The translations under genes were made by a program, and so were the position numbers. This document shows, one piece after another, positions 18,978-50,029 of a stretch of DNA of 64,000 nt. The stretch spans positions 124,001-188,000 of the forward strand of contig JAQTOA010000001.1 in the NCBI GenBank assembly GCA_028713555.1, given 5' to 3'. Numbering within the stretch: the first letter of the stretch is position 1; each line of letters starts with the position of its first letter. The notes under the pieces were generated by a model that worked only from the letters and a program-made list of their open reading frames with translations, made no database searches and had not been told where the DNA came from. Source of the stretch: Sterolibacterium sp. (lineage in GTDB: Bacteria; Pseudomonadota; Gammaproteobacteria; Burkholderiales; Rhodocyclaceae).

Positions 18978-19702
18978 GATGGATCTCCCGGAGAAGGCTC
19001 ACCGGCCGCGTCACGCAGCGGCATGGGCTGATTCGCCTCCGACAGGCGGTTGAACTGGCCGACGTTGAGCGAGCCGAACGAGTCTTTCAAATGGAAGAAA
19101 AAGACGCCGAACAGGATCGCCGCGACGAGGATGTCGAAGGCCACGCCCAGTTCGACGATCAGCGGCATGCCGTAGGTGGATACCACGGCGGCAAAGAAGA
19201 TCCCGCTTTCCATGGACATGAAGCCGATCACCTGCGCCACCGCCGACTTGCGTACACACATCAGCAGCATGCCGAGCAGTTCGATCGCGATACTCACGGC
19301 AATCGTATTCCGCGTCGCCAACCCCGACAGATGAATGATCGACTGCGCCACGAAATAGCTGAAGATCACCAGGGCCACGCCGCCGAGCAGCAGCAGTGTC
19401 GGGTGCTCGATCGCCTCGGCATCGTATTGCATGTTGAGCTTGATGCTGAGGCGGTAGAGCAACCATGGGATCAGCACCACCTTGAGGGTGAAAGTGAGCG
19501 CCGCCGAAACATAGAGTTCGGGATGTTTGGACGCAATGGCCGTTAACACCGACACCACCGCGAGCAACAACCCTTGCCAGGCGAAGGTAAAAATCAGCGG
19601 CATCATGCGTGCCTGGGCGAGCATGATGAAAGAGGTAAACAACGCCAGGGCCGCGAACAGGATAATGGCCTGGCTGTAGAGGCCAAGGGCGGCGATTCCC
19701 AT
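18974..19702 (-). CDS. hyfE: HyfE-like membrane subunit, cluster 1
   Basis: 242 residues with several membrane helices; related to HyfE/HycD-side subunits, whose core is NuoK-like. The start ATG at 19702 directly abuts the hyfC stop. The family-like stretch VIGFMSMESGIFFAAV includes a membrane Glu that in NuoK-type proteins takes part in proton transfer. It has a C-terminal polar extension of about 20 residues compared with the 219-residue paralogue at 27430. Confidence 0.85.
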   Translation of the reverse strand: MGIAALGLYSQAIILFAALALFTSFIMLAQARMMPLIFTFAWQGLLLAVVSVLTAIASKHPELYVSAALTFTLKVVLIPWLLYRLSIKLNMQYDAEAIEHPTLLLLGGVALVIFSYFVAQSIIHLSGLATRNTIAVSIAIELLGMLLMCVRKSAVAQVIGFMSMESGIFFAAVVSTYGMPLIVELGVAFDILVAAILFGVFFFHLKDSFGSLNVGQFNRLSEANQPMPLRDAAGEPSPGDPS

Positions 19703-20659
19703 TTAGCCCGTCTCCAGCACGACATGGGTGAGCATGGCGAGCAACGAAAGCATCAAGGCAAATCCGAGAAACTGCGGTACGCGAAACAGCCGCATCTTGG
19801 CAAGCACCGTTTCCCAGACAACCAATACCACGGCGAGCAGCATCAGTTTTGCTGTCACAGCAATGACGCCAACCGCCAAGGCCATGGCGCTGAAGTCGGT
19901 GGCGATGCCCCACGGAAAGAAGAAATCGATGATCAGCACCGAGTAGATCATCAGCTTGATCTGCGAAGCCCACTCGATCAGCGCCAGATGGCGCCCGCCA
20001 TACTCGAGGATCATGGCCTCGTGCAGCATGGTGAGTTCGAGATGGGTGGCGGGATTGTCCACCGGAACGCGGCTGGTTTCAGCCACCGCCACCATGGCCA
20101 GCGCCAGCAGGGCGAACAGGAACGACGGACGCAACACCAGGCCCGCTTGCAGCATGTACGCCGTCGCCACCGACAGGTTGGTCGTGGACGCCGTCATGGA
20201 AAGGGTGAACACCGCCATCAGCATGGCCGGTTCGGCCAGTGCGGCGACCATCATCTCGCGCGAGGCGCCCATGCCGCCGAAGGCGGTGCCGATGTCGAGG
20301 CCGGCCAGTGCGGTGAAAAAACGCGCCAGCGCAAAAAAAGCGACCAGCACGATCATGTCGGCAATCGCGGCTGATGGCAGGTGCACGGCGAAGAGCGGGA
20401 CTACTGCGGCGGCGAGCAGCACGGCGCCGAAGACGATGTAGGGAACCGCGCGGAACAGCCAGGAGGCATTCTCGGCTAGCAGCATCTGCTTGCGCAACAG
20501 CTTCGCGAGATTGCGGTACGGCTGCCACACTGCCGGCGCATCGCGGTTCTGCATATGGCACTTGACGCGCTGTAACCAGCCGGCGAGCAGCGGTGCGGCG
20601 GCAATGAACAGCAGCGCCTGCGCTAGGGCAAGCGCCCAGGCAGTCAACTCACGATCCAT
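19703..20659 (-). CDS. hyfC: HyfC/NuoH-like membrane subunit, cluster 1
   Basis: 318 residues from ATG 20659 (MDRELTAWALALAQ), overlapping hyfB by 16 bases. The track start at 20971 reads through hyfB in another frame. It is homologous to HyfC/HycD and to NuoH, which links the Fe-S arm to the proton pumps. The acid-rich segment DNPATHLELTMLHEAMILEY corresponds to the NuoH E-channel and is intact, so conformational or proton coupling could operate. Eight or so membrane helices are expected. Confidence 0.9.
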   Translation of the reverse strand: MDRELTAWALALAQALLFIAAAPLLAGWLQRVKCHMQNRDAPAVWQPYRNLAKLLRKQMLLAENASWLFRAVPYIVFGAVLLAAAVVPLFAVHLPSAAIADMIVLVAFFALARFFTALAGLDIGTAFGGMGASREMMVAALAEPAMLMAVFTLSMTASTTNLSVATAYMLQAGLVLRPSFLFALLALAMVAVAETSRVPVDNPATHLELTMLHEAMILEYGGRHLALIEWASQIKLMIYSVLIIDFFFPWGIATDFSAMALAVGVIAVTAKLMLLAVVLVVWETVLAKMRLFRVPQFLGFALMLSLLAMLTHVVLETG

Positions 20660-22689
20660 AGGAATACCAGCAGCGTCACGAAAGAGAATTTCAGGTAGGT
20701 ATGGATGTTGCCAGTCTGGATAAAGCCAATTTTGTTGGCTGCGGCGAGTACCATGCGTCCGATCGGAACGTAGCACTTGAGCCACGACCAGTCGTATGTG
20801 TGCAAACTGTAATTCAGGTTCGTTACGCGCGGGATCAGCCCCGCGCTGGCGAGCGTGTCGACGCGCTCCTCGATCTTCCATACGCCGCCGAAAACGCGCC
20901 GGATCGGTTGACTGAACGCGGTCGAGGTGTACTGCATACGCTGTGTGAGTTGGCCGAAACCGCAGTCCCAAGCGTAAACTCTACGCGCCGGAGCGGTGCC
21001 GCGCTTGAGGAACAGGTAGCCAAGACCGAATACTACGACCATGGCGGCCACGACGAACGGGGCAGAGTACGAAGCCACCTGGGGCGAAACCGGGGTCAGC
21101 CACAACCAGCCCTGGGCGGTGGCCGAGGGTAGTGCCTCGTGTACCAGCAGTTGCGTGATGGGCCCCATGGCTTCGATCACCGTGGTCGGGAACACACCGA
21201 GCAGCAGGCACAGCGTCGCCAGCAGCCCCATCCCGCCCAGCATGCCGACCGGTACTTCGCGGGCGCGGGCGACACGGCGCGTGCGCGGCTTGCCGAGGAA
21301 GGCAATGCCGAAGGCCTTGACGAAGCAGGCAGCGGCAAGCGCCCCGGTGAGCGCCAGCAGCGCTGCGGCAATTGGCATCATGGTGCGCAGCAGACCGTTT
21401 TCCAGTGCGGGCGCCTGCAACGCCGTCTGGAAGGTCAGCCACTCCGAAACGAAGCCGTTGAAAGGTGGCAGCGCCGAAATTGCGACACTGCCGAGCAGAA
21501 ACAGGAACGCAGTGACCGGCATGCGATGAATCAGTCCGCCCATGTGATCGAGGTCGCGTTCATGCGTTCGATAGAGCACGGCGCCAGCGCCGAGAAACAG
21601 CAGTCCCTTGAATAGGGCATGGTTGATGGTGTGATAGAGCGCCGCCACCAAACCGAGGGTACCGAGCATCTTGTGCCCGCTACCGAGAAAAATCATCGAC
21701 ATGCCGAGGCCCATCAGGATGATGCCGATGTTCTCGACCGAATGGTAAGCCAACAGGCGCTTGAGATCGTGCTGCATCAGCGCGTACAGCACACCGAGCA
21801 GGGACGAGGCGGTGCCGATGATCAGCACCACCATCCCCCATTCCCAGCGCACGTCGCCGATCAGGTCAAAACTCACCCGCACGATGCCGTAAATGCCCAT
21901 CTTGATCATGGCCCCGCTCATCATCGCCGAGATGTGCGATGGGGCAACCGGGTGGGCATCCGGCAGCCAGACATGCAGCGGCACCATGCCCGCCTTGGTG
22001 CCGAAGCCAAGGAAGGCGCAGGCAAAGCTGAGCGTCGCCCACAGCGGTGTCAGCTTGGCCGCGCGCATCTGGTCAAAGGTGAGACCGCCGCCAAAGGCGG
22101 CGAGTACTCCGAAGGAAAGCAGGATCACCAGGGCGCCGACGTGGGCGAGCAACAGGTAGAGGAAGGCAGCCTGGCGATTGGCGGCATGCTGGTGCTGATA
22201 CACCACCAGAAAATATCCGCAAAGCGACATCATTTCCCAGAAGATCATGAATACCAAGGCGTCGTCGGCGAGCAGCATCAGCTGCATGCCGAGGACGAAC
22301 AACGCGGTAAACACGCCGAGCGGGGGCAGCGGCTGGGCCGCCGGACCGCGCGCGAACTCGCGCGTGTAACTGGGGCCATACAAAGAAATCGCGACTGCCA
22401 GCGTGCCGAGCAGCACCAGGAAAAAGCCCGACAGGGGGTCGATCCGTAAATGCCAGTCGAGCCAAGGCAGGCCTAGCGCGAAGTGGTCGGTGACGGTCAG
22501 CTTGGCGAGCAGAGTCCAGCCGCCGGCGGCGATGCTGGCTGCGCCGGAGAAGAACAGGAAAAAGAATGAGCCGAAATGCAGGAAGCCCGGGCGGCTGCGC
22601 ACAGCAAGCAGAGAAACGGCGCCCGACAGCAAGGTGCAAAGTACTGCAGCGTAAGCAAAGAGTAACGGGGTTCCAAACGTCGCGCTCAT
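20644..22689 (-). CDS. hyfB: HyfB-like antiporter-type membrane subunit, cluster 1
   Basis: 681 residues from ATG 22689 (MSATFGTPLLFAYAAVL); the track start 25 codons upstream adds a polar stretch with no support. It belongs to the NuoL/HyfB family, with the pump motifs IFWEMMSLCGYF and GTKAGMVPLHVWLPDAH. The C-terminal region RRVYAWDCGFGQLTQRMQYTS is typical of hydrogenase-4 component B. It is the first gene of cluster 1. Its promoter must lie in 22690-22994, shared divergently with the MarR-type gene. Confidence 0.9.
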   Translation of the reverse strand: MSATFGTPLLFAYAAVLCTLLSGAVSLLAVRSRPGFLHFGSFFFLFFSGAASIAAGGWTLLAKLTVTDHFALGLPWLDWHLRIDPLSGFFLVLLGTLAVAISLYGPSYTREFARGPAAQPLPPLGVFTALFVLGMQLMLLADDALVFMIFWEMMSLCGYFLVVYQHQHAANRQAAFLYLLLAHVGALVILLSFGVLAAFGGGLTFDQMRAAKLTPLWATLSFACAFLGFGTKAGMVPLHVWLPDAHPVAPSHISAMMSGAMIKMGIYGIVRVSFDLIGDVRWEWGMVVLIIGTASSLLGVLYALMQHDLKRLLAYHSVENIGIILMGLGMSMIFLGSGHKMLGTLGLVAALYHTINHALFKGLLFLGAGAVLYRTHERDLDHMGGLIHRMPVTAFLFLLGSVAISALPPFNGFVSEWLTFQTALQAPALENGLLRTMMPIAAALLALTGALAAACFVKAFGIAFLGKPRTRRVARAREVPVGMLGGMGLLATLCLLLGVFPTTVIEAMGPITQLLVHEALPSATAQGWLWLTPVSPQVASYSAPFVVAAMVVVFGLGYLFLKRGTAPARRVYAWDCGFGQLTQRMQYTSTAFSQPIRRVFGGVWKIEERVDTLASAGLIPRVTNLNYSLHTYDWSWLKCYVPIGRMVLAAANKIGFIQTGNIHTYLKFSFVTLLVFLWIVS

Positions 22690-22994
22690 CGCGAGAGTTC
22701 CGACGACAGGAATCTTGGCCTCACTCCCAACCCCCCCATTAAACGCCGACACACAACGCTCCAACCTCCGCGCGATAAACCATCACGCGCTGATTCAACG
22801 GTCCGGGTGCGACAAATCAGGGGTCACCAAGAACGTAGACCGATGAGACTCACCCATCCTGTCGGTTCAATCATGACACTTTCGGGCGGTCTCTACAAGT
22901 TGCCGTGCTGCGAGAACGTTGTGGACGGACAGTGCTTTGTTGCAAGGATCGCCGGACGGTCCACCAAGGCGGGAAAATCCTTTATCATGCGCTG
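22690..22994. promoter_or_regulatory. Divergent intergenic region between Ehr cluster 1 and the MarR-type gene
   Basis: 305 bases without a convincing gene. It must hold the promoter of hyfB (minus) and probably that of the regulator (plus). I found no clear sigma-70 pair and no copy of the 16-bp palindrome seen in front of the Pal-like gene. Confidence 0.5.
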
Positions 22995-23516
22995 ATGGCT
23001 TCCATATCCCGAACGCATGCGGCAAAACCAGACGCCAAAAAACGAAGGCGGTCCACCGATCCGGCAATGGAGGTGCTGCAAAATTTTCGGCTCATCTTCA
23101 AGTCTGTCAAAAAGCATTTCCATTGGGTCGAACAGCAGACTGGCGTGAATGGTGCTCAACTGTGGGCTCTTGCCAACGTTGTCGAGAAACCGGGAATAAA
23201 GGTGACCGAACTCGCCAAAGTCATGGCAATTCACCAATCCACTGTAAGCAATCTTGTCGACAAGCTGGTGAAGCAGAAATTTCTGCGTCGTGAGCGTAGC
23301 GAGGATGACCAACGCATCGTGTGTTTGTTTCCCGAGTTGGGAGGGAAACGCTTAGTCAAGAGCGCGCCCAAGCCCATTCAGGGCGTACTCTCGGATGCGC
23401 TGGGATGCCTGCCTGTGTCTGATTTGGTCCAGTTAAACGCACTCTTGACGAGCGTTGTCCTCAACATGAAAGTTCGTGACGCGACGGGAAAGACAACCCT
23501 ACTTTCCGATATTTGA
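22995..23516 (+). CDS. MarR-type winged-helix transcriptional regulator
   Basis: 173 residues from ATG 22995 (MASISRTHAAKPDAKKRR). The track ORF starts 30 codons earlier in non-coding-looking sequence. It has a basic N-terminal tail and then a winged-helix domain: the recognition helix region is VTELAKVMAIHQSTVSNLVDKLVKQ and the wing RRERSEDDQRIV, matching the MarR DxRxxR-like pattern. It sits exactly between the two Ehr clusters, next to the Pal-like gene, so it is the best local candidate for their regulator. The effector is unknown. The Lys/Arg-rich tail could add DNA contacts. Confidence 0.85.
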   Translation: MASISRTHAAKPDAKKRRRSTDPAMEVLQNFRLIFKSVKKHFHWVEQQTGVNGAQLWALANVVEKPGIKVTELAKVMAIHQSTVSNLVDKLVKQKFLRRERSEDDQRIVCLFPELGGKRLVKSAPKPIQGVLSDALGCLPVSDLVQLNALLTSVVLNMKVRDATGKTTLLSDI

Positions 23517-24420: not shown

Positions 24421-26481
24421 ATGCCCCTCTCAATTCACGAACTGCTGTCTATAGACTGGCTGATTGCGCTGGTCGTGGCTTGGCTGGTCATCGGTCTGGC
24501 GGGTTTGCTGGCGCCGCGCAACTTGAGTTTCGTCGGCAAGACCTTATATCCGTTGGGCGCACTGGTCGGGTTGGCGGTGGCGCTGGTCGCTTTCCATGCT
24601 CTCGGCGAAACAGCCGAGATTGCCGTGCTGCCGATGGGCCTCCCCGACCTACCTTTCCACTTGCGGCTGGATTCGCTTTCGGCAATTTTCCTGCTGCTGC
24701 TGGGCGCCGCCGCCGCAGGCATCTCCATCTATGCTTCGGGCTACCTGAGAAAAGGCGAAGGCACGGCGCCGGGGCTGCAAAGCTTGCAGTACCATATTTT
24801 TCTTGCCAGCATGGCGCTGGTGCTGCTGGCTGATGATGCCTATGCCTTCATGGTGGCCTGGGAGTCTATGGCGTTGTCATCGTTTTTCCTGGTCACTTCC
24901 GATCATCGCAAGCCTGATATCCGTCGTGCCGGCTATCTCTACCTGCTGATTGCGCACATCGGCGCGATCAGTATCCTGCTCAGCTTTGGCGTGTTGCAAA
25001 GCAGCGCTGGCTTGGGCGCGACGCAGGGCGCGGCCGACTATACCTTTTCCCACATGCGCGCTACCGGCCACGATGCTTTCTGGGCGAGTGCGGCGTTCGG
25101 CCTGGCGCTGTTAGGCTTCGGCGCCAAGGCCGGCCTGTTGCCGCTCCACGTCTGGCTGCCCGAAGCCCACCCGGCGGCACCCTCGCCAGTGTCGGCGATG
25201 ATGAGCGGCGTCATGCTGAAAACCGCGATTTACGGCGTGCTGCGCGTCTCCTTCGACCTGCTGCATCATCCACTGTGGTGGTGGGGCGTCGCGGTGCTGG
25301 CGCTGGGACTGGCCAGCGCGCTGTTTGGCGCCGTTTTCAGCGCCGTGCAAAGCGATATGAAACGGCTGCTGGCGTATTCGTCGATCGAGAATATCGGGCT
25401 GTTGTTCGTCGGCATCGGCTTGGCGCTGACATTTCAGTCTTTCGGCATGCTGACCTTGGCGGCGCTTGCGCTCACCGCCATGCTCTATCATTGCCTGAAC
25501 CACGCGGCATTCAAGAGCCTGCTGTTCTTGTGCACCGGCTCGGTGCTGCATGCGACGCGCGAACGCAGTCTGGGCAAATTGGGTGGCTTGATCCATCCCA
25601 TGCCGTGGGTCGCCTGGCTAGCCCTGCTCGGCGTGATCGCCAGTGCCGGCTTGCCGCCCCTGAACGGCTTTGTCTCCGAATGGCTGCTGCTGCAAGCTTT
25701 CTTGTTCACGCCCAACTTGCCACATAGTTACATCAACATGCTGATTCCGGTGGCCGCCGCCGCCGTGGCGCTGACTGCCGCGTTGGCCGGGTATGTGATG
25801 GTCAAGTTTTTTGCCATCGTCTTCCTCGGTCAGGCACGCGAAGAATCTATTTCTCAGCATGCGCACGATGCCGGCTGGCTGGAACGCGCCGGACTGGTCT
25901 GGCTGGCGGCGCTCTGCGTGCTGCTCGGATTGTTCCCGGTGTTTGTCATCGAAAAGCTTGATTTCGTGACTCGCACCCTGCTCGGTGCAGGCGTGTATGA
26001 GACCGCCGGTGACGCTGCCCATACCCAAAACTGGCTGCTGCTGGCGCCGATCAGCGCCGATCGTGCCAGTTATGAGCCCTTGGTCTTCCTGCTGATGATC
26101 ACTGCCGTGGTGGCGGCCACGTTCTTCATCGTGCGCCGCTTCTGGCACGGCCGTTTGCGCCGCAGCGCCGCCTGGGACTGCGGTTTTCCGTTGCAGACGG
26201 CGCGCATGCAGGACACCGCGGAGGGTTTCAGCCAGCCGCTGCGCCAGGTGTTCGAACCGTTCTATCGGCTGACACGGGATTTACCCACATCTTTCGACAA
26301 GGCGCCGCTTTATCGGGTCGTCGTCGAGGACCACTTCTGGTATTGGTTGTACCTGCCGGTGGCGCGCGCCTCTGAGTTCGGCGCGCGCATGGTGGCTTTC
26401 CTGCAGCAAGGCCGCATCTCGATTTACCTGTTGTACAGCTTCCTCACCTTGGTCGTGCTGCTCTTTCTGGTGCGAGGATAA
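24421..26481 (+). CDS. hyfB: HyfB-like antiporter-type membrane subunit, cluster 2
   Basis: 686 residues, NuoL/HyfB family, paralogous to the gene at 20644. The pump motifs are VAWESMALSSFF (Glu) and FGAKAGLLPLHVWLPEAH (Lys). HyfB-type features also include the long C-terminal region with SAAWDCGFPLQTARMQDT. Around 16 membrane helices are expected. It opens plus-strand cluster 2. The 234-base gap upstream contains the Pal terminator and a TAAAAT-like -10 element near 24406, but no convincing -35. Confidence 0.9.
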   Translation: MPLSIHELLSIDWLIALVVAWLVIGLAGLLAPRNLSFVGKTLYPLGALVGLAVALVAFHALGETAEIAVLPMGLPDLPFHLRLDSLSAIFLLLLGAAAAGISIYASGYLRKGEGTAPGLQSLQYHIFLASMALVLLADDAYAFMVAWESMALSSFFLVTSDHRKPDIRRAGYLYLLIAHIGAISILLSFGVLQSSAGLGATQGAADYTFSHMRATGHDAFWASAAFGLALLGFGAKAGLLPLHVWLPEAHPAAPSPVSAMMSGVMLKTAIYGVLRVSFDLLHHPLWWWGVAVLALGLASALFGAVFSAVQSDMKRLLAYSSIENIGLLFVGIGLALTFQSFGMLTLAALALTAMLYHCLNHAAFKSLLFLCTGSVLHATRERSLGKLGGLIHPMPWVAWLALLGVIASAGLPPLNGFVSEWLLLQAFLFTPNLPHSYINMLIPVAAAAVALTAALAGYVMVKFFAIVFLGQAREESISQHAHDAGWLERAGLVWLAALCVLLGLFPVFVIEKLDFVTRTLLGAGVYETAGDAAHTQNWLLLAPISADRASYEPLVFLLMITAVVAATFFIVRRFWHGRLRRSAAWDCGFPLQTARMQDTAEGFSQPLRQVFEPFYRLTRDLPTSFDKAPLYRVVVEDHFWYWLYLPVARASEFGARMVAFLQQGRISIYLLYSFLTLVVLLFLVRG

Positions 26482-26485
26482 GCTG

Positions 26486-27433
26486 ATGAATTCCATCTTG
26501 CTCCAGTTTCTTGAACTTGTCCTGGCGCTGGCTTTGGCGCCAGTCCTGACAGGCTGGGTGAACCAATGCCGCGCCTGGCTGCAAAATCGTTCCGCGCCGC
26601 CGCTCCTGCAGCCCTATTACCAAATCGTCAAGCTGTTCGAGAAGGACGTAGTCCTGGCGCATCACGCGTCGAGTCTGTTTCGTTCCGCCCCCTATTTCAT
26701 CTTCGCCGCCATGGCCCTGGCGGCGACCATCGTGCCGACACTATCCACCGATCTGCCTTTCGGGCCGGCCGCCGACGCCATCGCGCTGGTCGGCATCTTC
26801 GCCCTGGCGCGCGTTTTCATCGCCTTGGCAGGCATGGACATCGGCACTGCTTTTGGCACCCTCGGCGCGCGTCGTGAAATGCTCGTGGGCTTTCTCGCCG
26901 AACCGGCATTGTTGATGGTGTTTTTTACCGCTTCGCTGATCTCGCATTCGACCTCTCTGGCGACCATCGTCGAGACCTTGGCGCATCGCGAGTTGGTCAT
27001 CTACCCGAGCATGGCCTTCGCCGGCGTGGCTTTCACCATGGTATCGCTGGCCGAAAATGCCCGCGTACCGGTGGACAATCCAACCACCCATCTCGAACTC
27101 ACGATGATCCACGAAGCGATGATTCTGGAATATTCCGGTCGTCACCTGGCGTTGATCGAGTGGGCCGCTGCCCTCAAAATGTACGCTTACTCCTGTCTCG
27201 GACTGGCCTTGTTCTTTCCCTGGGGCATCCCGGAAGGCGCGAAATTCGCCAGCCTGGCAATCGGCTTGCCGAGTTTGCTGATCAAACTGGCGATTGGCGG
27301 TTTCCTGCTCGCCCTGATCGAGACGCTCAGCGCCAAGATGCGCATTTTCCGCGCGCCGGAATTCCTCGGCACGGCCTTCATGCTGGCCGTGCTCGGGATG
27401 CTGGTGCATCTGCTGCTGGAGACAGGGAAGTGA
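26486..27433 (+). CDS. hyfC: HyfC/NuoH-like membrane subunit, cluster 2
   Basis: 315 residues, starting 4 bases after hyfB. The NuoH-like E-channel segment DNPTTHLELTMIHEAMILEY is intact and nearly the same as in cluster 1. GRHLALIEWAAALKM follows, as in HycD/HyfC. It should connect the hydrophilic HyfG/HyfI module to the antiporter-type subunits. Its stop overlaps the GTG start of hyfE (GTGA). Confidence 0.9.
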   Translation: MNSILLQFLELVLALALAPVLTGWVNQCRAWLQNRSAPPLLQPYYQIVKLFEKDVVLAHHASSLFRSAPYFIFAAMALAATIVPTLSTDLPFGPAADAIALVGIFALARVFIALAGMDIGTAFGTLGARREMLVGFLAEPALLMVFFTASLISHSTSLATIVETLAHRELVIYPSMAFAGVAFTMVSLAENARVPVDNPTTHLELTMIHEAMILEYSGRHLALIEWAAALKMYAYSCLGLALFFPWGIPEGAKFASLAIGLPSLLIKLAIGGFLLALIETLSAKMRIFRAPEFLGTAFMLAVLGMLVHLLLETGK

Positions 27434-28089
27434 ATTCCTACTACGGCCAGATCATCAACCTGCTCGCCGCCGGGCTGCTACTGCTTTCCTTCGCCATGCT
27501 GGGGCAACGGCGCATTCTCTCGCTGATCAATCTGTTCATGGCGCAGGGCGCGGTGCTGTGCGCATCGACCGCCATCGTCGCGTTTGTCACCGGGCAGAAC
27601 CACTTGTACTGGTCAGCGCTGATCACCCTGCTTCTCAAGGTACTGTTGTTGCCGGCGATTTTGCACCGACTGATCCGTCGCCTCAACATCAAATGGGACG
27701 TCGAAACCCTGATCAACATTCCGACCACCATGCTGATCGGCATCGTTCTTGTCATCTTCTCCTTCAATCTGGCGCTGCCGATTTCCGAGCTGGCCGGCAC
27801 CGTCACCCGATCGACGCTGGGGATCGCCATGGCTGCCGTGTTGCTGGCCTTCCTGATGATGATCACGCGCAGCAAGGCGGTGCCCCAGGTGATCGGCTTT
27901 TTGTCGATGGAAAACGGCCTGTTCTTTGCCGCCACCTCGGCCACCTATGGCATGCCGATGGTGGTCGAACTGGGTATCGCGCTCGATGTGCTGGTCGGCA
28001 TGGTGATTCTCGGGGTGTTCTTCTTCCAGATTCGCGAGCGCTTCGATTCGCTCGATATCCGTCATCTCGAACAGTTGAAGGAAGATTGA
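27430..28089 (+). CDS. hyfE: HyfE-like membrane subunit, cluster 2
   Basis: 219 residues from GTG 27430 (VNSYYGQIINLLAAG), overlapping the hyfC stop. The track ORF from 27160 is mostly out-of-frame hyfC. It is multi-spanning with a NuoK-like core; VIGFLSMENGLFFAAT includes the conserved membrane Glu. It lacks the C-terminal extension of the cluster 1 copy. hyfF follows after 6 bases. Confidence 0.85.
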   Translation: MNSYYGQIINLLAAGLLLLSFAMLGQRRILSLINLFMAQGAVLCASTAIVAFVTGQNHLYWSALITLLLKVLLLPAILHRLIRRLNIKWDVETLINIPTTMLIGIVLVIFSFNLALPISELAGTVTRSTLGIAMAAVLLAFLMMITRSKAVPQVIGFLSMENGLFFAATSATYGMPMVVELGIALDVLVGMVILGVFFFQIRERFDSLDIRHLEQLKED

Positions 28090-28095
28090 GGCGGC

Positions 28096-29544
28096 ATGGA
28101 ATTCTTTCTGGTCCTCGGTATCCCTCTGCTCGGCGGCATCGTGCTGGCGCTCATCGGGCATACTCGGCGCGCCGCCGAATACAACGCGCTGTTCAGCCTG
28201 CTGACCTTGATCGCGGCGATCAACCTGACCGTGCACATCGTCAACCATGGTCCGCAATTGTTGTTTCAGGATCAGTTTTTTCTCGATCCGCTGAATGTCT
28301 TTCTGGTCGCGCTGACCGCCTTGGTCGGTTTCACGACTTCGTTGTTCTCGCGTCCCTACATGCGCATCGAACACCACCACGGACGACTTACCGTAGGGCG
28401 ACTACGGCTTTACCACAGCATGTTCCAGATGTTCATGTTCACCATGCTGCTGGCGTTGACCACCAACAACATGGGCATCCTCTGGGTGGCGATGGAGGCG
28501 GCCACGCTGACCACCGTGCTGCTGGTCTCGCTCTATCGCACGACAGCCTCGCTCGAAGCCGCCTGGAAATATTTCATCCTGTGCGGCGTCGGCATCGCCC
28601 AGGCGCTGTTCGGCACGATCCTGTTGTATTTCGCCGCTGAGAAAGTGCTTGGGCATGAAGGCGGCGCGCTATTGTGGACCCACCTGAATGCGGTCAAGGG
28701 AACGCTCGAGCCGACCGTGATGTCTTTGGCGTTCGTCTTCCTGCTGGTCGGCTACGGCACCAAGGTCGGCTTGGTGCCGCTGCATAACTGGCTGCCGGAC
28801 GCCCACGCCGAAGGCCCGACGCCGGTTTCCGCAGTGCTCTCAGGCTTGCTGCTGAACGTCGCGCTGTACGCCGTGGTGCGTTGCAAAGTGCTGGCCGACG
28901 GCGCCTTGCACAGCAACCTTGCGGGTGTCCTGATGATGGGATTCGGCCTGCTGTCGGTGGTGGTCGCCGCTTTCTTTCTGTCGAGGCAGAAGGATATCAA
29001 GCGGATGTTCGCCTATTCCTCGATCGAGCACATGGGCATCGTCACATTCGCCTTCGGCATGGGCGGACCGCTGGCGAGCTTCGGCGGGCTGCTGCACATG
29101 ACGGTGCATAGTCTGACCAAGTCGGCGATCTTCTTCGCGGTCGGCCACGCCACGCAGAAGAGCGGCACGCAGTTGATGGAGCAGATCCGCGGCCTGATCA
29201 AGATCAGCCCGACTGTGGGCTGGGGACTGATGTTGGGGACGTTGGCAATTCTCGGCATGCCGCCGTTCGGCGTCTTCGCCAGCGAATTTCTGATCCTCAC
29301 CACCGCCATGAAGCAGCAGCCCTGGGCTACGCCGTTCCTGCTGATGGCGTTGGGCGTGGCCTTTGCTTCAATCTTCGGCAAGGTGCAGCCGATGGTGTTC
29401 GGCGAGAGTACCTTGCCCAAGCTGCCGCATAAGCCGGCGATGCTGCCGGTGTTCGTCCATCTGGCGCTAGTGCTGATGCTGGGCCTGTGGATCCCACCCT
29501 ACCTGGCCGAGTGGTACCGGCAGGCAGCCAAGTTCATTGGATAG
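28096..29544 (+). CDS. hyfF: HyfF-like antiporter-type membrane subunit, cluster 2
   Basis: 482 residues, NuoL/M/N family, strongly similar to 17499..18977. It shares WVAMEAATLTTVLLVSLYRT, GYGTKVGLVPLHNWLPDAH and IRGLIKISPTVGWGL. The Glu and Lys of the ion path are present. This pair looks the best conserved between the two clusters, which suggests strong constraint on the pump part. Confidence 0.9.
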   Translation: MEFFLVLGIPLLGGIVLALIGHTRRAAEYNALFSLLTLIAAINLTVHIVNHGPQLLFQDQFFLDPLNVFLVALTALVGFTTSLFSRPYMRIEHHHGRLTVGRLRLYHSMFQMFMFTMLLALTTNNMGILWVAMEAATLTTVLLVSLYRTTASLEAAWKYFILCGVGIAQALFGTILLYFAAEKVLGHEGGALLWTHLNAVKGTLEPTVMSLAFVFLLVGYGTKVGLVPLHNWLPDAHAEGPTPVSAVLSGLLLNVALYAVVRCKVLADGALHSNLAGVLMMGFGLLSVVVAAFFLSRQKDIKRMFAYSSIEHMGIVTFAFGMGGPLASFGGLLHMTVHSLTKSAIFFAVGHATQKSGTQLMEQIRGLIKISPTVGWGLMLGTLAILGMPPFGVFASEFLILTTAMKQQPWATPFLLMALGVAFASIFGKVQPMVFGESTLPKLPHKPAMLPVFVHLALVLMLGLWIPPYLAEWYRQAAKFIG

Positions 29545-29551
29545 GCGCTAA

Positions 29552-31114
29552 ATGCAGTTTCTCGACCAACCTCTCGAATTCACAGCCCTGCCCGGCGCAC
29601 TGGCGGCATTTCACGCCACCGCCGACGAGGCCGGATTGGTCGCCTTCGCCAGCCAGGTGAAGCAATCCGGCCGCCGCTTCATTGCCTTGTGGGGCAGCGA
29701 CGAACGCGACAGGAATGCCGGTTTTGCGCTGCATGTGGCTTTCGGCATCGGCGCGGGACTGGCCTTGGTGACGCTGCCCTTGTCGGCGGAAAACCCGGAA
29801 TATCCCGATCTCGCGGCCATCTTCCCTGCCGCCAACCGCATGCAGCGCACCGCATACGATTTACTCGGCATTCGCGCCCGCAGCGGGCCGGAGCATGATG
29901 GGCGCCCCTGGCTACGCCACGCCAACTGGCCGGCGGACTTCTTTCCGTTGCGCCGCGATACCGATTCGTCTTTGCAGTTCGACACCTGCAATGAGGAATA
30001 TGCTTTTGTCCGCGTCGAGGGCGACGGGGTGCATGAAATTCCTGTTGGTCCGATCCATGCTGGCATCATCGAGCCCGGGCAGTTCCGTTTCTCCGTGGTC
30101 GGCGAAAAGGTGCTGCGTCTGGAACAGCGCATGGGTTGGAAGCACAAGGGCATCGAGAAGCGCTTCGAGCAACTGCCGTTGGCCGATGCCTACAGACTGG
30201 CCGGCCGCGTTTCGGGCGACTCGACGGTGGCCTACGCCTGGGCCTACTCCCTCGCCGCCGAATCGCTGACCGGCTGCACCCCGCCGCCGCGCGCCCTGTG
30301 GCTGCGCGCACTGTTGCTGGAGCGCGAGCGCATCGCCAATCATCTCGGCGATCTCGGTTATCTCGGCAACGATGCCGCGCTGTCCTTCGGACTCTCCCAG
30401 TTCATGCGCCTTCGGGAAGACTGGCTGCGCCTGTCGGGCGCACTGTTCGGCCATCGCTTGCTGATGAACAGCATCGTGCCGGGCGGCGTTGCGCACAATT
30501 TGCCGGCGGAAGGCGGCGCGCAGATTCTCGCGCAGTGCGACAGCATTGAGCGCGAGGTGCGCATTCTCAAGGACATCTACGACGAACACGCCGGCTTGCA
30601 GGATCGCTTCCTGACCACCGGCCGGCTGGCTCCGGCCTTGGCCGCCGAACTCAGCGTCAGCGGCCTGGTCGGTCGCGCCAGCAGCCAGACCTGGGATTTG
30701 CGTACGCAGAACCCGATCGCGCCCTACGACCAGTTCGACACCCAGATCGTCACGCATCGCAACGGCGATGTCGCCGCCCGCGTCACCGTGCGTTTCGAGG
30801 AAGTATTCGAATCTTTGCGCTTGACCCGCTTGATCCTCGCGCAACTTGCCGAGCAACCGGCCGGTGAACTGGCCACGCGCCTGCCAGCGGCAGAGGATGG
30901 CGCTTTCGGCGTCGGTTGGATCGAGGGCTGGCGCGGCGATATCCTGGTGGCACTGACCGCCGGCACGGCTGGCGGCATCCGCCGCTGCCATTGCCACGAT
31001 CCCTCATGGCGCATCTGGCCGGCGCTGGAACATGCCGTGATGGGTAACATCGTGCCGGACTTTCCGCTGATCAACAAATCCTTCAATCTCTCCTACTGCG
31101 GAGAGGACTTGTAG
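29552..31114 (+). CDS. hyfG: HyfG-like large subunit (NuoC-NuoD fusion) lacking NiFe ligands, cluster 2
   Basis: 520 residues. An N-terminal NuoC-like domain is followed by a NuoD/large-subunit domain starting at VHEIPVGPIHAGIIEPGQF. The NiFe ligand positions are replaced: GRVSGDSTVAYAW instead of an N-terminal CxxC, and NKSFNLSYCGEDL at the C-terminus, which has a single Cys and no CxxC. The shared basic motif WKHKGIEKRF is kept. As in cluster 1, this is an Ehr-type subunit rather than a hydrogenase. The N-terminal domains of the two copies differ much more than the C-terminal ones. Confidence 0.88.
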   Translation: MQFLDQPLEFTALPGALAAFHATADEAGLVAFASQVKQSGRRFIALWGSDERDRNAGFALHVAFGIGAGLALVTLPLSAENPEYPDLAAIFPAANRMQRTAYDLLGIRARSGPEHDGRPWLRHANWPADFFPLRRDTDSSLQFDTCNEEYAFVRVEGDGVHEIPVGPIHAGIIEPGQFRFSVVGEKVLRLEQRMGWKHKGIEKRFEQLPLADAYRLAGRVSGDSTVAYAWAYSLAAESLTGCTPPPRALWLRALLLERERIANHLGDLGYLGNDAALSFGLSQFMRLREDWLRLSGALFGHRLLMNSIVPGGVAHNLPAEGGAQILAQCDSIEREVRILKDIYDEHAGLQDRFLTTGRLAPALAAELSVSGLVGRASSQTWDLRTQNPIAPYDQFDTQIVTHRNGDVAARVTVRFEEVFESLRLTRLILAQLAEQPAGELATRLPAAEDGAFGVGWIEGWRGDILVALTAGTAGGIRRCHCHDPSWRIWPALEHAVMGNIVPDFPLINKSFNLSYCGEDL

Positions 31115-44280: not shown

Positions 44281-46866
44281 ATGCCTATGGACGTCTTCGC
44301 GCATCGTTCTCTCAAAACCAGAATCACTCTCACCACGCTGGTTATTTTTTTGTTAAGTATCTGGTCGCTGGCGTTCTACACTATCCGGACACTACGTGAC
44401 GATATACAGATCCTATTGGGGAATCAGCAGTCTTCGACTGTTTTTTTATTGGCCAACGAGGTCAATCACGAGTTGAAAGATCTGTTGAGCATATTGGAAA
44501 TGACTGCCGGAACTATTACACCGACCATGATGGAACATCCGTCGGCATTGCAGTCAATATTGGAACAACGCTCGACGGCTCTTTATTTGTTCAACTCTGC
44601 CTTTACGGTCTTTCGGCTTGATGGCACGGCGATTGCGGATGTTCCAGTCTCTGGAGGGCAGATCGGCTTCCATTACACCGATAGTGATGAAGTCGACGAT
44701 GTGCTCAAGGGGGCTAAATCGAAGTTTGGCAAGCCACACTTCTCCAAACTTAAGGGAAATCCGGAATTTGGTATAACTGTGCCTATTCGTAATGCTCAGG
44801 GCAACGTGATCGGCGCATTGAAAGGAGAGATTGATCTGAGCAAGCCGTCTTTTCTTGACAGGATTTCAGCGGGCAGCTATGGCAAGAGCGGCGGCAGTCT
44901 TATCCTAGATATAAGGGATGGTCTCATCCTCTCTGCCACTGACAAGAAACGCGCCATGCAGCCGCTGCCCGCGCCGGGAATCAATGAAATGACGGACAAA
45001 CGCAGGCAGGGATTTCTTGATACAGCTGTCTCTATAAATTCGCAGGGTACAGAAGTACTGTCATCGGCCAGTCGTATTCCAGCAACAGAGTGGATGGTGG
45101 TCGTTGCACTGCCCACTGAGGAGGCGTTTGCCCCGATTCACGGCATTCAGCAGCGCATGCTGCTTGCCGCAATTATCCTTACCCTGCTGGCGGGTGGACT
45201 GATCTGGTGGCTGTTAAAGCGCCAGTTATCGCCAATGCTTACGACCGCCGCAACACTGGCCAGCATGTCGGATACGGACAAGCCGCTGCAACCACTGCCC
45301 ATCACTCGCCAAGACGAAATCGGCACACTAGTCGGCGGTTTCAATCGTCTGCTAGATATCTTGGTACAGCGTGAAGAGGCATTGAAGAAAAACAAGGAGC
45401 GTTTCCAGTTGATCATGGAAACGATAGACGAGGTTTTCTGGATGGCGGATGTTCCGATTGAAAGCATGTTGTACATTAGCCCCGGCTATGAACGTGTTTG
45501 GGGCCGCACATGCCACAGCTTGTATGAATATCCGCGTTCCTTCATCGAAGCCATTCACCCGGAAGATAGGGAGAGAGTGGTTTCCGACCTTGCGGTCGAG
45601 GGAACCGGGCAGTCATTTCACCATGAATACCGGATTATCCGTCCGGATGGGACGATCAGGTGGATTTTGGATCGCGGCTTCCCCGTTCTCAATCAAATGG
45701 GTACGGTAACGCAATACGTTGGCGTCGCTCAGGACATTACCGAGCGCAAACTGGCGGAAGCAGAGCGTAACATTGCTTCCGTCGCCTTTGAGTCGCAGGA
45801 CGGCATGGTCATTGCAGATGCCGATCGCGTGATCCTGCGGGTCAACGAGTCCTTCACCGCCATCACCGGCTACTCTGCCGAGGAGGCGGTTGGTCGCAAG
45901 ACCAATCTGCTCAAGTCCGGCCGCCATGATGAAGAGTTCTACCAGTCCATGTGGGAGAAGTTGAATCGAGCTGGGTATTGGGGGGGGGAAATCTGGAATC
46001 GACGCAAGGACGGCGAAGTGTATCCGGAATGGCTGACCATCACGTCAGTCAAGTCCAACGATGGGAAGGTCACCAACTATGTCGCCAGCATGACCGACAT
46101 TGCCGAGCGCAAGCGGACAGAAAGCGAACTAATAACATTGCGCACAGAGATGCAGCAGATGATTGAATGGCAGGTCGCAAGTCAAACCGTGGCCGCCCTG
46201 TCGCACGAGGTCAACCAGCCGCTTGCGAGCATAGCCCTACTCTGCGAGGCAGCAAGCCGCATGTTGGCGACGGATGACATGGCTTTTGCGTCCGATGCAA
46301 ACCTACCCGAGCGGCTCAAACAAATCCTGAAAAGCTTGGTGGCTGAATCTGAACGTGCCGGTGCCAAGGTGCGTAATTTGCTTGAGTCATTGCACAGGCC
46401 GGACGCCGAGCGGGAGCCGATTGCAATCTCTTCACTATTGCGCGATGCAGTGCGCGTGTCGCGAACCAACGGGCTAACGGACTACCCGGTGACCATCGAT
46501 TGCGCGACCGATATGACTGTACTGGTCAATCGCTTGCAAATGGAGAAGGTGCTCCTGAACCTGATCGGCAACAGTGTAGAAGCGATGCGAAATGCGGATG
46601 TGCCCGAGGGGAAAATCCGGATCAAAGTCAGCATGAACGGCGAAGGCGTCGGGATAAGCGTTACAATCAGGGACGAAGGTCCCGGTATCAGCAGAGAGAT
46701 TGGCCAGCAGATATTCCATCCATTCTTCACCACCAAACCCAACGGTATGGGCATGGGCTTGGCAATTTCGCGTGCCCTGATCCAGGCGCAGGGGGGTAAG
46801 CTTTGGTACGAAGCCGATGAGGGACCCGGAGCCGTTTTCTGCTTCACCCTGCCGTTCTCTAGGTGA
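44281..46866 (+). CDS. Hybrid-free sensor histidine kinase with two PAS domains
   Basis: 861 residues; GAGGAGAATAGCGGC precedes the ATG. TM1 (about 17-36), a large periplasmic sensor domain (about 37-290, Cache-like in appearance), TM2 (292-313), HAMP (about 311-365), PAS-PAC 1 (about 373-490), PAS-PAC 2 (about 498-612). The HisKA box has His642 in AALSHEVNQPLAS. The ATPase domain has LNLIGNSVEAM, DEGPGIS and GMGMGLAIS. The DHp/ATPase part resembles FixL/DctB-type kinases. PAS ligands (haem, flavin) cannot be told. It is the partner of the FixJ-like regulator 4 bases downstream. Confidence 0.92.
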   Translation: MPMDVFAHRSLKTRITLTTLVIFLLSIWSLAFYTIRTLRDDIQILLGNQQSSTVFLLANEVNHELKDLLSILEMTAGTITPTMMEHPSALQSILEQRSTALYLFNSAFTVFRLDGTAIADVPVSGGQIGFHYTDSDEVDDVLKGAKSKFGKPHFSKLKGNPEFGITVPIRNAQGNVIGALKGEIDLSKPSFLDRISAGSYGKSGGSLILDIRDGLILSATDKKRAMQPLPAPGINEMTDKRRQGFLDTAVSINSQGTEVLSSASRIPATEWMVVVALPTEEAFAPIHGIQQRMLLAAIILTLLAGGLIWWLLKRQLSPMLTTAATLASMSDTDKPLQPLPITRQDEIGTLVGGFNRLLDILVQREEALKKNKERFQLIMETIDEVFWMADVPIESMLYISPGYERVWGRTCHSLYEYPRSFIEAIHPEDRERVVSDLAVEGTGQSFHHEYRIIRPDGTIRWILDRGFPVLNQMGTVTQYVGVAQDITERKLAEAERNIASVAFESQDGMVIADADRVILRVNESFTAITGYSAEEAVGRKTNLLKSGRHDEEFYQSMWEKLNRAGYWGGEIWNRRKDGEVYPEWLTITSVKSNDGKVTNYVASMTDIAERKRTESELITLRTEMQQMIEWQVASQTVAALSHEVNQPLASIALLCEAASRMLATDDMAFASDANLPERLKQILKSLVAESERAGAKVRNLLESLHRPDAEREPIAISSLLRDAVRVSRTNGLTDYPVTIDCATDMTVLVNRLQMEKVLLNLIGNSVEAMRNADVPEGKIRIKVSMNGEGVGISVTIRDEGPGISREIGQQIFHPFFTTKPNGMGMGLAISRALIQAQGGKLWYEADEGPGAVFCFTLPFSR

Positions 46867-46870
46867 CCTT

Positions 46871-47518
46871 GTGACTGTACCCACCGTATTCATCGTCGAT
46901 GACGATCCCGGAATGAGATCCAGCCTCTCCATTCTGATGGAGACGACCCGGCTGAAGGCTGATTGTTTCGCGAGTGCCGAGGAATTCTTGAGCGTTTGCG
47001 GCCCGCATCAGGAAGGATGTCTGTTGCTTGACGTTCGCATGCCTGGGATGAGCGGGCCTGATCTGCAGGAAGAATTGGCTCGTCGCAATGTAAGGCTGCC
47101 CATCATTTTTCTGACTGCATACGCCGATCTTCCGACGGGGGTGGAGGCCATGAAGCAGGGTGCCGTGGATTTTCTGACCAAACCGATAAACGGTGAGCTA
47201 CTGCTGCAGCGCGTGCAGGTCGCCTTCGAAATAGATCGCCTGCAAAGGGAGTCTGAAGTGGCACGGCACTTGTTCGAGTCGCGTTTGCTCAAACTCACCA
47301 ATCGCGAGCGGGAAGTTCTTACACTTGCCCTTACCGGTATGGGTAATAAGGAAATCTCGACCCATCTGAAAGTCAGCCTGCGCACGATCGAAGGCCACCG
47401 ATCGCGGATATACCTCAAGATCGGCGTCAGTTCGTTAATCGAACTGTCCCAGCAGGCTGTTGATGCTGGCGTCAATCTGGCCCAGGCCATATCATCGCTC
47501 TGCGACGCCACTACCTAA
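46871..47518 (+). CDS. FixJ/NarL-type response regulator
   Basis: 215 residues from GTG 46871 (VTVPTVFIVDDDPG), 4 bases after the kinase stop. The track start at 46817 overlaps the kinase. The receiver domain has the acidic DDD near residues 10-12, the phospho-acceptor Asp54 (LLLDVRMPG), Thr in FLTAYAD and Lys in FLTKPI. The C-terminal LuxR-type HTH has LTNREREVLTLALTGMGNKEIS and VSLRTIEGHRSRIYLKIG. Targets are unknown; the PilZ and HD-GYP genes downstream are natural candidates. Confidence 0.93.
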   Translation: MTVPTVFIVDDDPGMRSSLSILMETTRLKADCFASAEEFLSVCGPHQEGCLLLDVRMPGMSGPDLQEELARRNVRLPIIFLTAYADLPTGVEAMKQGAVDFLTKPINGELLLQRVQVAFEIDRLQRESEVARHLFESRLLKLTNREREVLTLALTGMGNKEISTHLKVSLRTIEGHRSRIYLKIGVSSLIELSQQAVDAGVNLAQAISSLCDATT

Positions 47519-47571
47519 GTCACCGACTTCGTACTCGCGAGGGCATCCATCGTTCACTCGTTCGGAATCTG

Positions 47572-47595
47572 CGGTAATCACGCAAGTGATTACCG
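47572..47595. repeat. Inverted repeat downstream of the response regulator gene
   Basis: CGGTAATCAC / GTGATTACCG is a perfect 10-bp stem with loop GCAA, 53 bases past the stop. It is nested within a longer imperfect pairing (GCGGTA ... TACCGC). It may terminate the kinase-regulator transcript, or serve as a protein-binding palindrome. No T-run follows. Confidence 0.45.
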
Positions 47596-47674
47596 GGCTA
47601 CCGCAATTCCGCAAATTGGAGTGAAATGACTCGGACTGCCATTGATCGGACAAGGACTTGAACTTCCAGACAAA

Positions 47675-47714
47675 CTTGCTTCGCAGATGGTTTTTCCATG
47701 CCCAGCGAAGCAAG
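47675..47714. repeat. Long hairpin upstream of the PilZ gene
   Basis: CTTGCTTCGC / GCGAAGCAAG, a perfect 10-bp stem, encloses an inner ATGG-TTTTT-CCAT hairpin. It lies 73 bases before the PilZ start, so it could be in the mRNA leader. The upper-strand T-run sits in the loop, which is not a normal terminator layout. Confidence 0.4.
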
Positions 47715-47787
47715 AATACGGCGAGTCCCAAGCTGTCGCCTGGGATGCCAGCGTTTCCCCATATATCACTCCCACCAAAGGGAAAAC

Positions 47788-48276
47788 ATGTCGGAATGGT
47801 ATTTACGGGAACCTGGAACCGCTGATCTCGGGGAGTTCTCAATAGGGGCAGCCAATGAAAATATTGGGAAACCTCCCCTAAGATCTTTCACTGAAAGTCG
47901 CAGCGCAGAACGATATTGCGTGCGCTGGAAAATGGCGATCATTTTCGAAAATCACGAGCGTAAACCCGCTTACCACGGAAGAACCTACGATTTGTCTCTG
48001 TTGGGAACCGGGATGCTGACTGATGTCAATTTACATAAGACTTATTCCCCGGCCATCATTCTGTTGGCTCCTCCCCCTCTTGACACTAAGGATCGTCCCA
48101 AGATCATAGAAATCGAATCCCGGCAGCTTGATGCGGTTTATTCCGGGGAGACAAGATGTTTCCGGCTTGGGTTTGCTTTTTTGGAATTCAGGAACGACGG
48201 GTTGGATCTTCTGACGGAAAGATTGAAGCATCACAAATCGGTTGCAAGGACACAGCAGACCAAACCCGTAGGCTAA
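47788..48276 (+). CDS. PilZ domain protein (c-di-GMP receptor-like)
   Basis: 162 residues from ATG 47788 (MSEWYLREPG). The track start at 47698 runs through the structured leader. The PilZ motifs are present in order: RxxxR in ERYCVRWKM (about 41-48) and DxSxxG in YDLSLLGTGM, the two sites that clamp c-di-GMP. The rest is a beta barrel with a basic C-terminal tail. The next gene, 22 bases on, encodes a c-di-GMP phosphodiesterase-type protein. Confidence 0.8.
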   Translation: MSEWYLREPGTADLGEFSIGAANENIGKPPLRSFTESRSAERYCVRWKMAIIFENHERKPAYHGRTYDLSLLGTGMLTDVNLHKTYSPAIILLAPPPLDTKDRPKIIEIESRQLDAVYSGETRCFRLGFAFLEFRNDGLDLLTERLKHHKSVARTQQTKPVG

Positions 48277-48298
48277 GTTTCCCCTTCCCAGACCTGGC

Positions 48299-49516
48299 AT
48301 GCTAAAAAAGATCAACTCCGAAAAACTCTGTCTGGGCATGCATATCCATGAGCTTTGCGGCTCATGGATGAGCCACCCGTTCTGGCGGACAAAATTTGTC
48401 CTCAAGGATCCCGAGGACATCCGCCGCATCCTCGAGAGTGGCATCAAGGAAGTATGGATCAATACGGATAAAGGGCTGGATGCTGATGAAGGCGAGACCC
48501 GAGAACAAGTCAGCGCAGCAGTTGACAAGGTTCTGAGCGAGGCAAGCGAGCGGATCGAACTGCCCAAACAAGTGACGTTATCAGAGGAAGTCAAGCAGGC
48601 GGCCAAGACTTGCAACAAGGCAACCGAAGCCGTGCGCTCGATGTTCCAGGAAATGCGCATGGGCAAGGCCGTCAGTCTCAAAGCCATGAATGATTTTGTT
48701 GATGAAATATCCTCCTCAGTGCACAGAAACCCCGGGGCATTGATCAGCCTGGCCCGCCTAAAAACCATCGACGACTACACGTATATGCATTCGGTGGCAG
48801 TCTGCGGATTGATGATTGGACTGGGCCGCCAAATGGGTTTCGAGGAAGCTGACGTTCGCGAAGCGGGCAGAGCCGGCCTGCTCCACGACATCGGCAAGTC
48901 AAAGTTGCCGATGAAGGTTCTCAACAAGCCGGGCAAGCTGACCGACGATGAATTCATCATCATCAAGGCGCATTCCAGGGAAGGACACCAGATCCTTGAA
49001 GACGGCAAGGATGCCAATGATACGCTGCTCAACGTCTGCCTCCATCATCATGAAAAGATCGACGGCAGCGGCTATCCGCACCGTTTGAAGGGTGGGGAAA
49101 TCAGTCTTTATACTAAGATGTGCGCAGTCTGTGACGTGTATGACGCGATCACTTCCAACCGCCCCTATAAGATGGGTTGGGATCCATCAGAATCGATCCA
49201 GAAGATGACTGAATGGTGCGATGGACATTTTGACAAGGAAGTATTTCAAGCATTCGTCAAATGTATCGGCATCTATCCGACGGGATCTCTGATCCGCTTA
49301 TCTTCTGGCCGACTCGCAGTCGTTCTCGACCAGTCGGTAAAGTCACTGCTGACGCCGACTGTAAAGGCGTTCTTTTCGACCCGGACTAAGACCTACACCA
49401 AGCCGGAAATTGTCGATCTTGCACGCCATGGCACTCTGGAAAAGATCATGGGCGCTGAAGAAGCCGCCAAATGGGGCATCAAGAATCTGCATGAGTATTG
49501 GGCGCAACCTGCCTAG
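48299..49516 (+). CDS. HD-GYP domain phosphodiesterase with N-terminal DUF3391-like region
   Basis: 405 residues. The N-terminal 120 residues resemble DUF3391 (KINSEKLCLGMHIHELCGSWMSHPFW). The HD-GYP domain (about 140-320) keeps the metal-binding HD (LLHDIGKSKLP, residues 196-197), HHHEKIDGSGYP with GYP at 258-260, and CDVYDAITSNRPYK. It should hydrolyse c-di-GMP to pGpG/GMP. It lies between PilZ and bacteriohemerythrin, which suggests c-di-GMP output tied to oxygen or redox sensing. Confidence 0.92.
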   Translation: MLKKINSEKLCLGMHIHELCGSWMSHPFWRTKFVLKDPEDIRRILESGIKEVWINTDKGLDADEGETREQVSAAVDKVLSEASERIELPKQVTLSEEVKQAAKTCNKATEAVRSMFQEMRMGKAVSLKAMNDFVDEISSSVHRNPGALISLARLKTIDDYTYMHSVAVCGLMIGLGRQMGFEEADVREAGRAGLLHDIGKSKLPMKVLNKPGKLTDDEFIIIKAHSREGHQILEDGKDANDTLLNVCLHHHEKIDGSGYPHRLKGGEISLYTKMCAVCDVYDAITSNRPYKMGWDPSESIQKMTEWCDGHFDKEVFQAFVKCIGIYPTGSLIRLSSGRLAVVLDQSVKSLLTPTVKAFFSTRTKTYTKPEIVDLARHGTLEKIMGAEEAAKWGIKNLHEYWAQPA

Positions 49517-49521
49517 TTGAT

Positions 49522-49541
49522 AGCTTGTCAGTTGGCAAGCT
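49522..49541 (+). terminator. Weak hairpin after the HD-GYP gene
   Basis: AGCTTG / CAAGCT (6 bp, 8-base loop) sits just after the stop and 29 bases before the hemerythrin gene. It may partly terminate or attenuate transcription. No clear T-run. Confidence 0.3.
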
Positions 49542-49570
49542 TATAAAACAATAATTGAGGAGGCGCGTAA

Positions 49571-50029
49571 ATGGATTGGAAACCTGAGCACTCAGTCGGT
49601 ATCCGGGAAATTGATGACCAGCATAAGAAGGTCATCGAGATTATTTCAAGGATCGAGCAATCTGTAAAACTCCAGCGTGGATGGAGGGAAATTGTTTACG
49701 ATGTTGTTGATCTCAGGGTTTTTGCAAAGAGTCATTTCGAATTTGAAGAAGGGCTTATGCGGATGTTTGGATACAAGGAGTATACAAAGCACACTGGGGA
49801 GCATGAGCATTTCTTCAGAAAGCTGACAGAGATTGAAAGCAAATCCGTTAGCAATTTAGTTGAGAGCGAACTGCTGAAATTTCTTCGCGATTGGCTAAAG
49901 AACCACATTCTCGTTGAAGACAAGAGCTATGCGGAACATATTCTGTCTGGTGCTTCAATCCTGAAGGCGACTGTGCCAACTCTGACTTCAGTGAAATTGA
50001 CTTATATAACAACTCCTCAAGTTGTCTGA
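49571..50029 (+). CDS. Bacteriohemerythrin
   Basis: 152 residues; strong ribosome binding site GAGGAGGCGCG. All diiron ligands of the family are visible: His18 (DDQH), His55 and Glu59 (HFEFE), His74 and His78 (HTGEH), His112 and Asp117 (HILVED). It is a single-domain protein that binds O2 at the diiron centre and can act as an oxygen store, shuttle or sensor. About 20 residues at the C-terminus are extra. It follows the HD-GYP gene by 54 bases and may provide the oxygen signal. Confidence 0.92.
   Translation: MDWKPEHSVGIREIDDQHKKVIEIISRIEQSVKLQRGWREIVYDVVDLRVFAKSHFEFEEGLMRMFGYKEYTKHTGEHEHFFRKLTEIESKSVSNLVESELLKFLRDWLKNHILVEDKSYAEHILSGASILKATVPTLTSVKLTYITTPQVV

Follow-up and report, generated by a model that had tools for sequence, protein, structure and literature searches.

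A histidine kinase-response regulator pair beside a putative PilZ-HD-GYP-hemerythrin operon in Sterolibacterium

Five consecutive genes in a Sterolibacterium genome may fall into two adjacent units, a histidine kinase-response regulator (HK-RR) pair and a PilZ-HD-GYP-hemerythrin operon that resembles a split form of the fusion protein Bhr-HD-GYP; we hold this reading tentatively, at somewhat less than even confidence. The genes lie in the window (i.e., the whole 64,000-nucleotide stretch that was analyzed, positions 124001 to 188000 of contig C1 in a 3.07-Mb genome that is 80% complete). Among named records, the nearest relatives of the host genome are uncultured Betaproteobacteria and Rhodocyclales, e.g., the Lake Pavin MAG JAPLQT01 and Sulfuritalea-like genomes. 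The ORF check and the domain matches agree with the original prediction of five consecutive, intact plus-strand genes of the named families at 44281 to 50029, coordinates included (Table 1). The cluster is real, non-random, and lineage-specific, and each gene is an ordinary member of a known family. In the first unit, the membrane-bound kinase and the FixJ-type regulator would be translated together, and the kinase would read a periplasmic signal via its dCache domain and possibly redox via a flavin-type second PAS domain. In the second unit, PilZ, HD-GYP, and hemerythrin would form one operon, where the diiron site of hemerythrin would sense O2 or redox and modulate the HD-GYP protein in trans. 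Local c-di-GMP would then shift with oxygen, and the PilZ protein would read its level.

Table 1. Features of the five-gene block, in window coordinates
Feature	Position	Strand	Remarks
Sensor histidine kinase, 861 aa	44281..46866	+	dCache_1 (48-275), HAMP, PAS_3 (397-483), PAS_9 (507-609), HisKA H642, HATPase_c
FixJ-type response regulator, REC + LuxR/GerE HTH	46871..47518	+	GTG start likely, 4 nt past kinase stop
Perfect inverted repeat CGGTAATCAC-gcaa-GTGATTACCG, RR-PilZ gap	47572..47595	.	Candidate operator or transcript-end hairpin, without T run
Second perfect 10-bp inverted repeat, RR-PilZ gap	47675..47714	.	Arms 20 nt apart
Divergent stand-alone PilZ protein, 162 aa	47788..48276	+	RxxxR and DxSxxG retained
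DUF3391-HD-GYP protein, 405 aa	48299..49516	+	HD, HHE..DGSGYP and other catalytic positions retained; Tyr160 for PmGH Glu185
Short imperfect inverted repeat, HD-GYP-hemerythrin gap (54 nt)	49522..49541	.	Without T run
Bacteriohemerythrin, 152 aa	49571..50029	+	Seven of seven diiron ligand positions; GAGGAGG upstream

The spacing of the genes argues for this division. Kinase and regulator are 4 nt apart, PilZ and HD-GYP 22 nt, and HD-GYP and hemerythrin 54 nt, and 269 nt lie between the regulator and PilZ, counted from the GTG and ATG starts at 46871 and 47788, which are likely to be preferred over those of the longer ORFs. Shuffled sequence folds much less well than the 269-nt gap (z = -3.66 for the gap), and a perfect 10-bp hairpin lies in it; both points also speak for two units. 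With this spacing, PilZ, HD-GYP, and hemerythrin may be co-transcribed. Elsewhere in the window, two hydrogenase-4/complex-I-like membrane gene sets lie in opposite orientation (15916-22764, minus strand, and 24421-31114, plus strand) with a MarR-like regulator between them (22905-23516), these families having been assigned by eye.

The first inverted repeat of the gap is a perfect 10-4-10 palindrome about 190 nt upstream of the PilZ ATG, and it may be an RR operator or a transcript-end hairpin. The genome carries it perfectly just once, and only three further sites match it, each with three mismatches; as a repeated operator it was rejected on account of this single perfect copy. A terminator-like T run is absent from both perfect repeats in the gap, and neither a riboswitch nor any other RNA family was matched by Rfam in the gap or in the window. 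The same-genus comparison set comprised three other genomes (G017, G078, and G124). Upstream of the PilZ orthologue of G017 the palindrome was not seen, and the region upstream of PilZ is not conserved between the two. The original prediction allowed that the two-component pair might drive transcription of the output genes, and one may accordingly picture a single circuit, where kinase and regulator sense redox or a ligand and switch on the PilZ-HD-GYP-hemerythrin operon by binding the palindrome. Regulator genes often adjoin their targets, the sole perfect genome copy of the palindrome sits between RR and PilZ, and the second PAS domain of the kinase is of the MmoS/NifL/Aer redox type. However, no PilZ, HD-GYP, or hemerythrin genes were found around ten related HK-RR pairs (some of these contexts being a few kb long), the palindrome was not seen ahead of the G017 PilZ orthologue, and the element could equally end a transcript. 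Given the contexts of the related pairs, the structured 269-nt gap, and the single-copy palindrome, control by the two-component pair is not supported, and the single circuit appears somewhat unlikely.

The kinase has the order dCache-HAMP-PAS-PAS-HisKA-HATPase_c in a domain profile search, with H642 and the N and G boxes present, and the regulator joins Response_reg to GerE and retains D54 and K104. The two resemble FixL/FixJ in being a kinase paired with a regulator and in that the regulator is best scored by the FixJ model. In contrast to FixL/FixJ, the kinase takes its membrane input through dCache-HAMP and carries two PAS domains, and the scores stay far under the NCBIfam cut-off for FixL (204.5 versus 850 bits) and under that for FixJ (172.4 versus 255 bits). 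On these scores, the pair was not taken for a FixLJ heme oxygen sensor. A heme-ligating PAS histidine was not spotted in the kinase when its sequence was compared by eye with the FixL motif. The best PDB matches of the second PAS domain are MmoS (3ewk, 1.1e-24), NifL (2gj3, 4.4e-14), and Aer (8dik, 2.4e-9), and the host genome abounds in PAS domains of this kind. The kinase could possibly sense redox through this flavin-type domain, which may hold FAD, a cofactor that similarity to MmoS, NifL, and Aer does not by itself establish. No full-length orthologue of the kinase was found in G017, where the best match reaches 35-36%. Taken by itself, the sensor half matches other kinases at about 50%, a difference that points to domain shuffling. 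Relatives of the transmitter/regulator pair do exist, e.g., on contig C440 of G056, where the regulator shows 64% identity. Contig C3 of the host genome also encodes a histidine kinase with a fused hemerythrin domain (L184:4634-6004).

For the 162-aa PilZ protein, neither Pfam nor NCBIfam gave a match, the PF07238 cut-off not being reached, and phmmer against the PDB returned only noise. A paralogue of 63% identity matches PF07238 weakly, under the cut-off, and two paralogues of about 30% identity exceed it; the missed Pfam match is a limit of model sensitivity rather than a biological feature. The PilZ motifs R38xxxR42 and D68xSxxG73 are present. The AlphaFold model (mean pLDDT 81, above 90 across most of the barrel) has the PilZ β-barrel fold, with 4xrn, 5vx6, and 4rt0 as top Foldseek matches in the PDB, and it matches the PilZ domains of Alg44, MotI, YcgR, and MrkH, most of them c-di-GMP-bound. 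In G078, three stand-alone PilZ paralogues lie inside 11 kb (contig C116, L246).

The HD-GYP protein consists of DUF3391 and HD_5 domains and carries the HD dyad and the HHExxDGxGYP signature. Two-metal HD-GYP proteins can lack the residue corresponding to Glu185 of PmGH. We compared 12 positions, which we take to be the catalytic residues of PmGH (4mcw); 11 of them are kept (H164, H196, D197, K200, H225, H250, H251, D279, D282, R288, and K291), and Tyr160 stands in place of Glu185. The earlier statement that all key residues are intact therefore holds for the kinase, the regulator, PilZ, and hemerythrin, but not for HD-GYP. The same pattern at all 12 positions, with Tyr for this metal ligand, was found in 101 of 101 aligned HD-GYP sequences. 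Since 11 catalytic positions are invariant and the Glu185 position is Tyr throughout, the DUF3391-HD-GYP subfamily looks like one that has maintained a two-metal active site and lacks the ligand for a third metal. PmGH D308 is confirmed as a catalytic residue (PMC4212101). The same report describes VC2497 of Vibrio cholerae, which shares the DUF3391 and HD-GYP domain pair, as inactive in every assay; it is the only tested DUF3391 HD-GYP protein named there, and the PmGH residue missing from it, left unnamed, is perhaps a different one. The phosphodiesterase activity of the DUF3391 type is thus uncertain. The inactivity of VC2497 counts against the two-unit reading, and together with the subfamily-wide Tyr it would suit a catalytically silent HD-GYP that serves as an adaptor linking PilZ and hemerythrin by binding c-di-GMP or protein. 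In contrast, the invariance of the other catalytic positions fits a maintained two-metal site, and we regard such an adaptor as quite improbable. For the two-unit reading, we infer from sequence that the HD-GYP protein is an active phosphodiesterase and in which direction O2 would affect it.

The hemerythrin belongs to PF01814, scores 105 bits under the NCBIfam bact_hemeryth model (cut-off 84), and matches the structures of DcrH and bacteriohemerythrin. All seven ligand positions are present by motif and spacing (H, H-x3-E, H-x3-H, and H-x4-D), and 129 of the 151 family genomes have a relative. On its own, such a hemerythrin may do no more than store O2 or shield iron enzymes, which weighs against the two-unit reading. 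In Ferrovum sp. PN-J185, Bhr-HD-GYP hydrolyzes c-di-GMP when ferrous but not when ferric (Kitanishi et al. 2020, as summarized in PMC9388753). This redox-gated phosphodiesterase is a natural model for the present genes, which likewise bring together a hemerythrin with intact diiron ligands and an HD-GYP domain; by analogy with it, the separate hemerythrin would interact with the HD-GYP protein and gate it by redox. The Ferrovum protein differs in being one chain with hemerythrin first, whereas here two ORFs are involved, DUF3391 forms the N-terminal part of the HD-GYP protein, and a PilZ gene lies upstream. Bhr-DGC of V. cholerae also couples hemerythrin to c-di-GMP turnover (Schaller et al. 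2012, as summarized in PMC9388753), but as a fusion and with a cyclase instead of a phosphodiesterase. According to a 2022 review, the Ferrovum protein is the only known hemerythrin-containing phosphodiesterase. HD-GYP proteins with a C-terminal hemerythrin, i.e., in the reverse of the Ferrovum domain order, occur in several genera and in 9 of the 151 family genomes (the host and eight others; L180 and L301-L308). The host fusion, PAS-HD-GYP-hemerythrin (contig C17, L180:5416-6960), lies near HDOD and GGDEF-EAL genes.

In G017, the closest homologues lie in three places, HD-GYP on C61 (80%), PilZ on C14 (68%), and hemerythrin on C37 (76%). At least about 8 kb separate each of them from its contig ends, and the surroundings that were compared contain none of the other block partners. 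The five-gene block was not found in 80 HD-GYP loci of named genomes or in the family contexts compared (some of a few kb), and a conserved five-gene island was rejected on this ground. The PilZ-HD-GYP-hemerythrin triple was likewise found at no other locus examined, which counts against the two-unit reading. Among these loci and contexts, only L121 and L133 have hemerythrin as the gene immediately upstream of HD-GYP. Hemerythrin stands beside a DUF3391 HD-GYP at 4 of the 80 loci, perhaps through two independent events against about 0.4 expected by our own estimate, an enrichment too weak to carry weight. On G017 C37 (L245:5821-7974), hisD-like and hisC-like genes (named by eye) enclose a different HD-GYP gene with two hemerythrin genes after it. 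The G017 hemerythrin orthologue thus pairs with another HD-GYP, so a fixed partner is not shown, a further point against. On host contig C5, an HD-GYP paralogue (80%) is divergent from an adjoining PilZ-HDOD gene; on G017 C15 (L320:7235-10484), hemerythrin, YcgR-like, stand-alone PilZ, and PilZ-HDOD genes lie side by side, the last being the orthologue of the host PilZ-HDOD (70%). HD-GYP, PilZ, and hemerythrin therefore recur as neighbors in the genus, in combinations other than that of the block. These neighborhoods, together with the fusions in the family, support a functional link between hemerythrin and HD-GYP.

The GC content of the block is 43-55% by gene (hemerythrin 42.5%, PilZ 48.5%), whereas the flanking genes (P-type ATPase, NhaD-like, and MFS) have 61-64%. 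The neighborhood might thus be coincidental, a low-GC patch where signaling genes were gathered by duplication and shuffling and where hemerythrin stores or scavenges O2 in a general way, with no tie to c-di-GMP. The scattering of the orthologues in G017 and the richness of the genus in all of the block families would fit as well. The G017 hemerythrin orthologue is also low in GC (43.8%), so the low GC is partly inherent to the gene and alone no proof of recent transfer. With 19 HD-GYP-like, about 8 PilZ-like, and 11 hemerythrin matches in the host genome, a random same-strand PilZ-HD-GYP-hemerythrin triple is improbable (expected about 5e-5 times, a rough estimate that assumes about 2900 genes). 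This estimate, the short intergenic gaps, and the recurring hemerythrin-HD-GYP fusions make coincidence unlikely.

The two-unit reading accordingly draws on the fusions, the genus neighborhoods, the redox gating of Bhr-HD-GYP, and the 11 invariant catalytic positions, besides the gaps. The proposed oxygen- or redox-responsive c-di-GMP circuit is plausible as far as PilZ, HD-GYP, and hemerythrin are concerned, where the fusions, the G017 arrangement of another HD-GYP with two hemerythrins, and the published Bhr-HD-GYP support the hemerythrin/HD-GYP pairing. For the kinase and regulator the circuit is unsupported. As a speculative extension, to which we give little credence, stand-alone bacteriohemerythrin could be an interchangeable in-trans O2/redox subunit for DUF3391-HD-GYP and PilZ proteins, so that in this lineage free sensors as well as fused ones would serve one c-di-GMP machinery. 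If hemerythrin does not gate the HD-GYP protein, the block is an ordinary cluster of signaling genes. If it does so in trans, the common stand-alone bacteriohemerythrins would gain a signaling role beyond O2 handling, and such gating would suggest a route that ties attachment or motility to oxygen.
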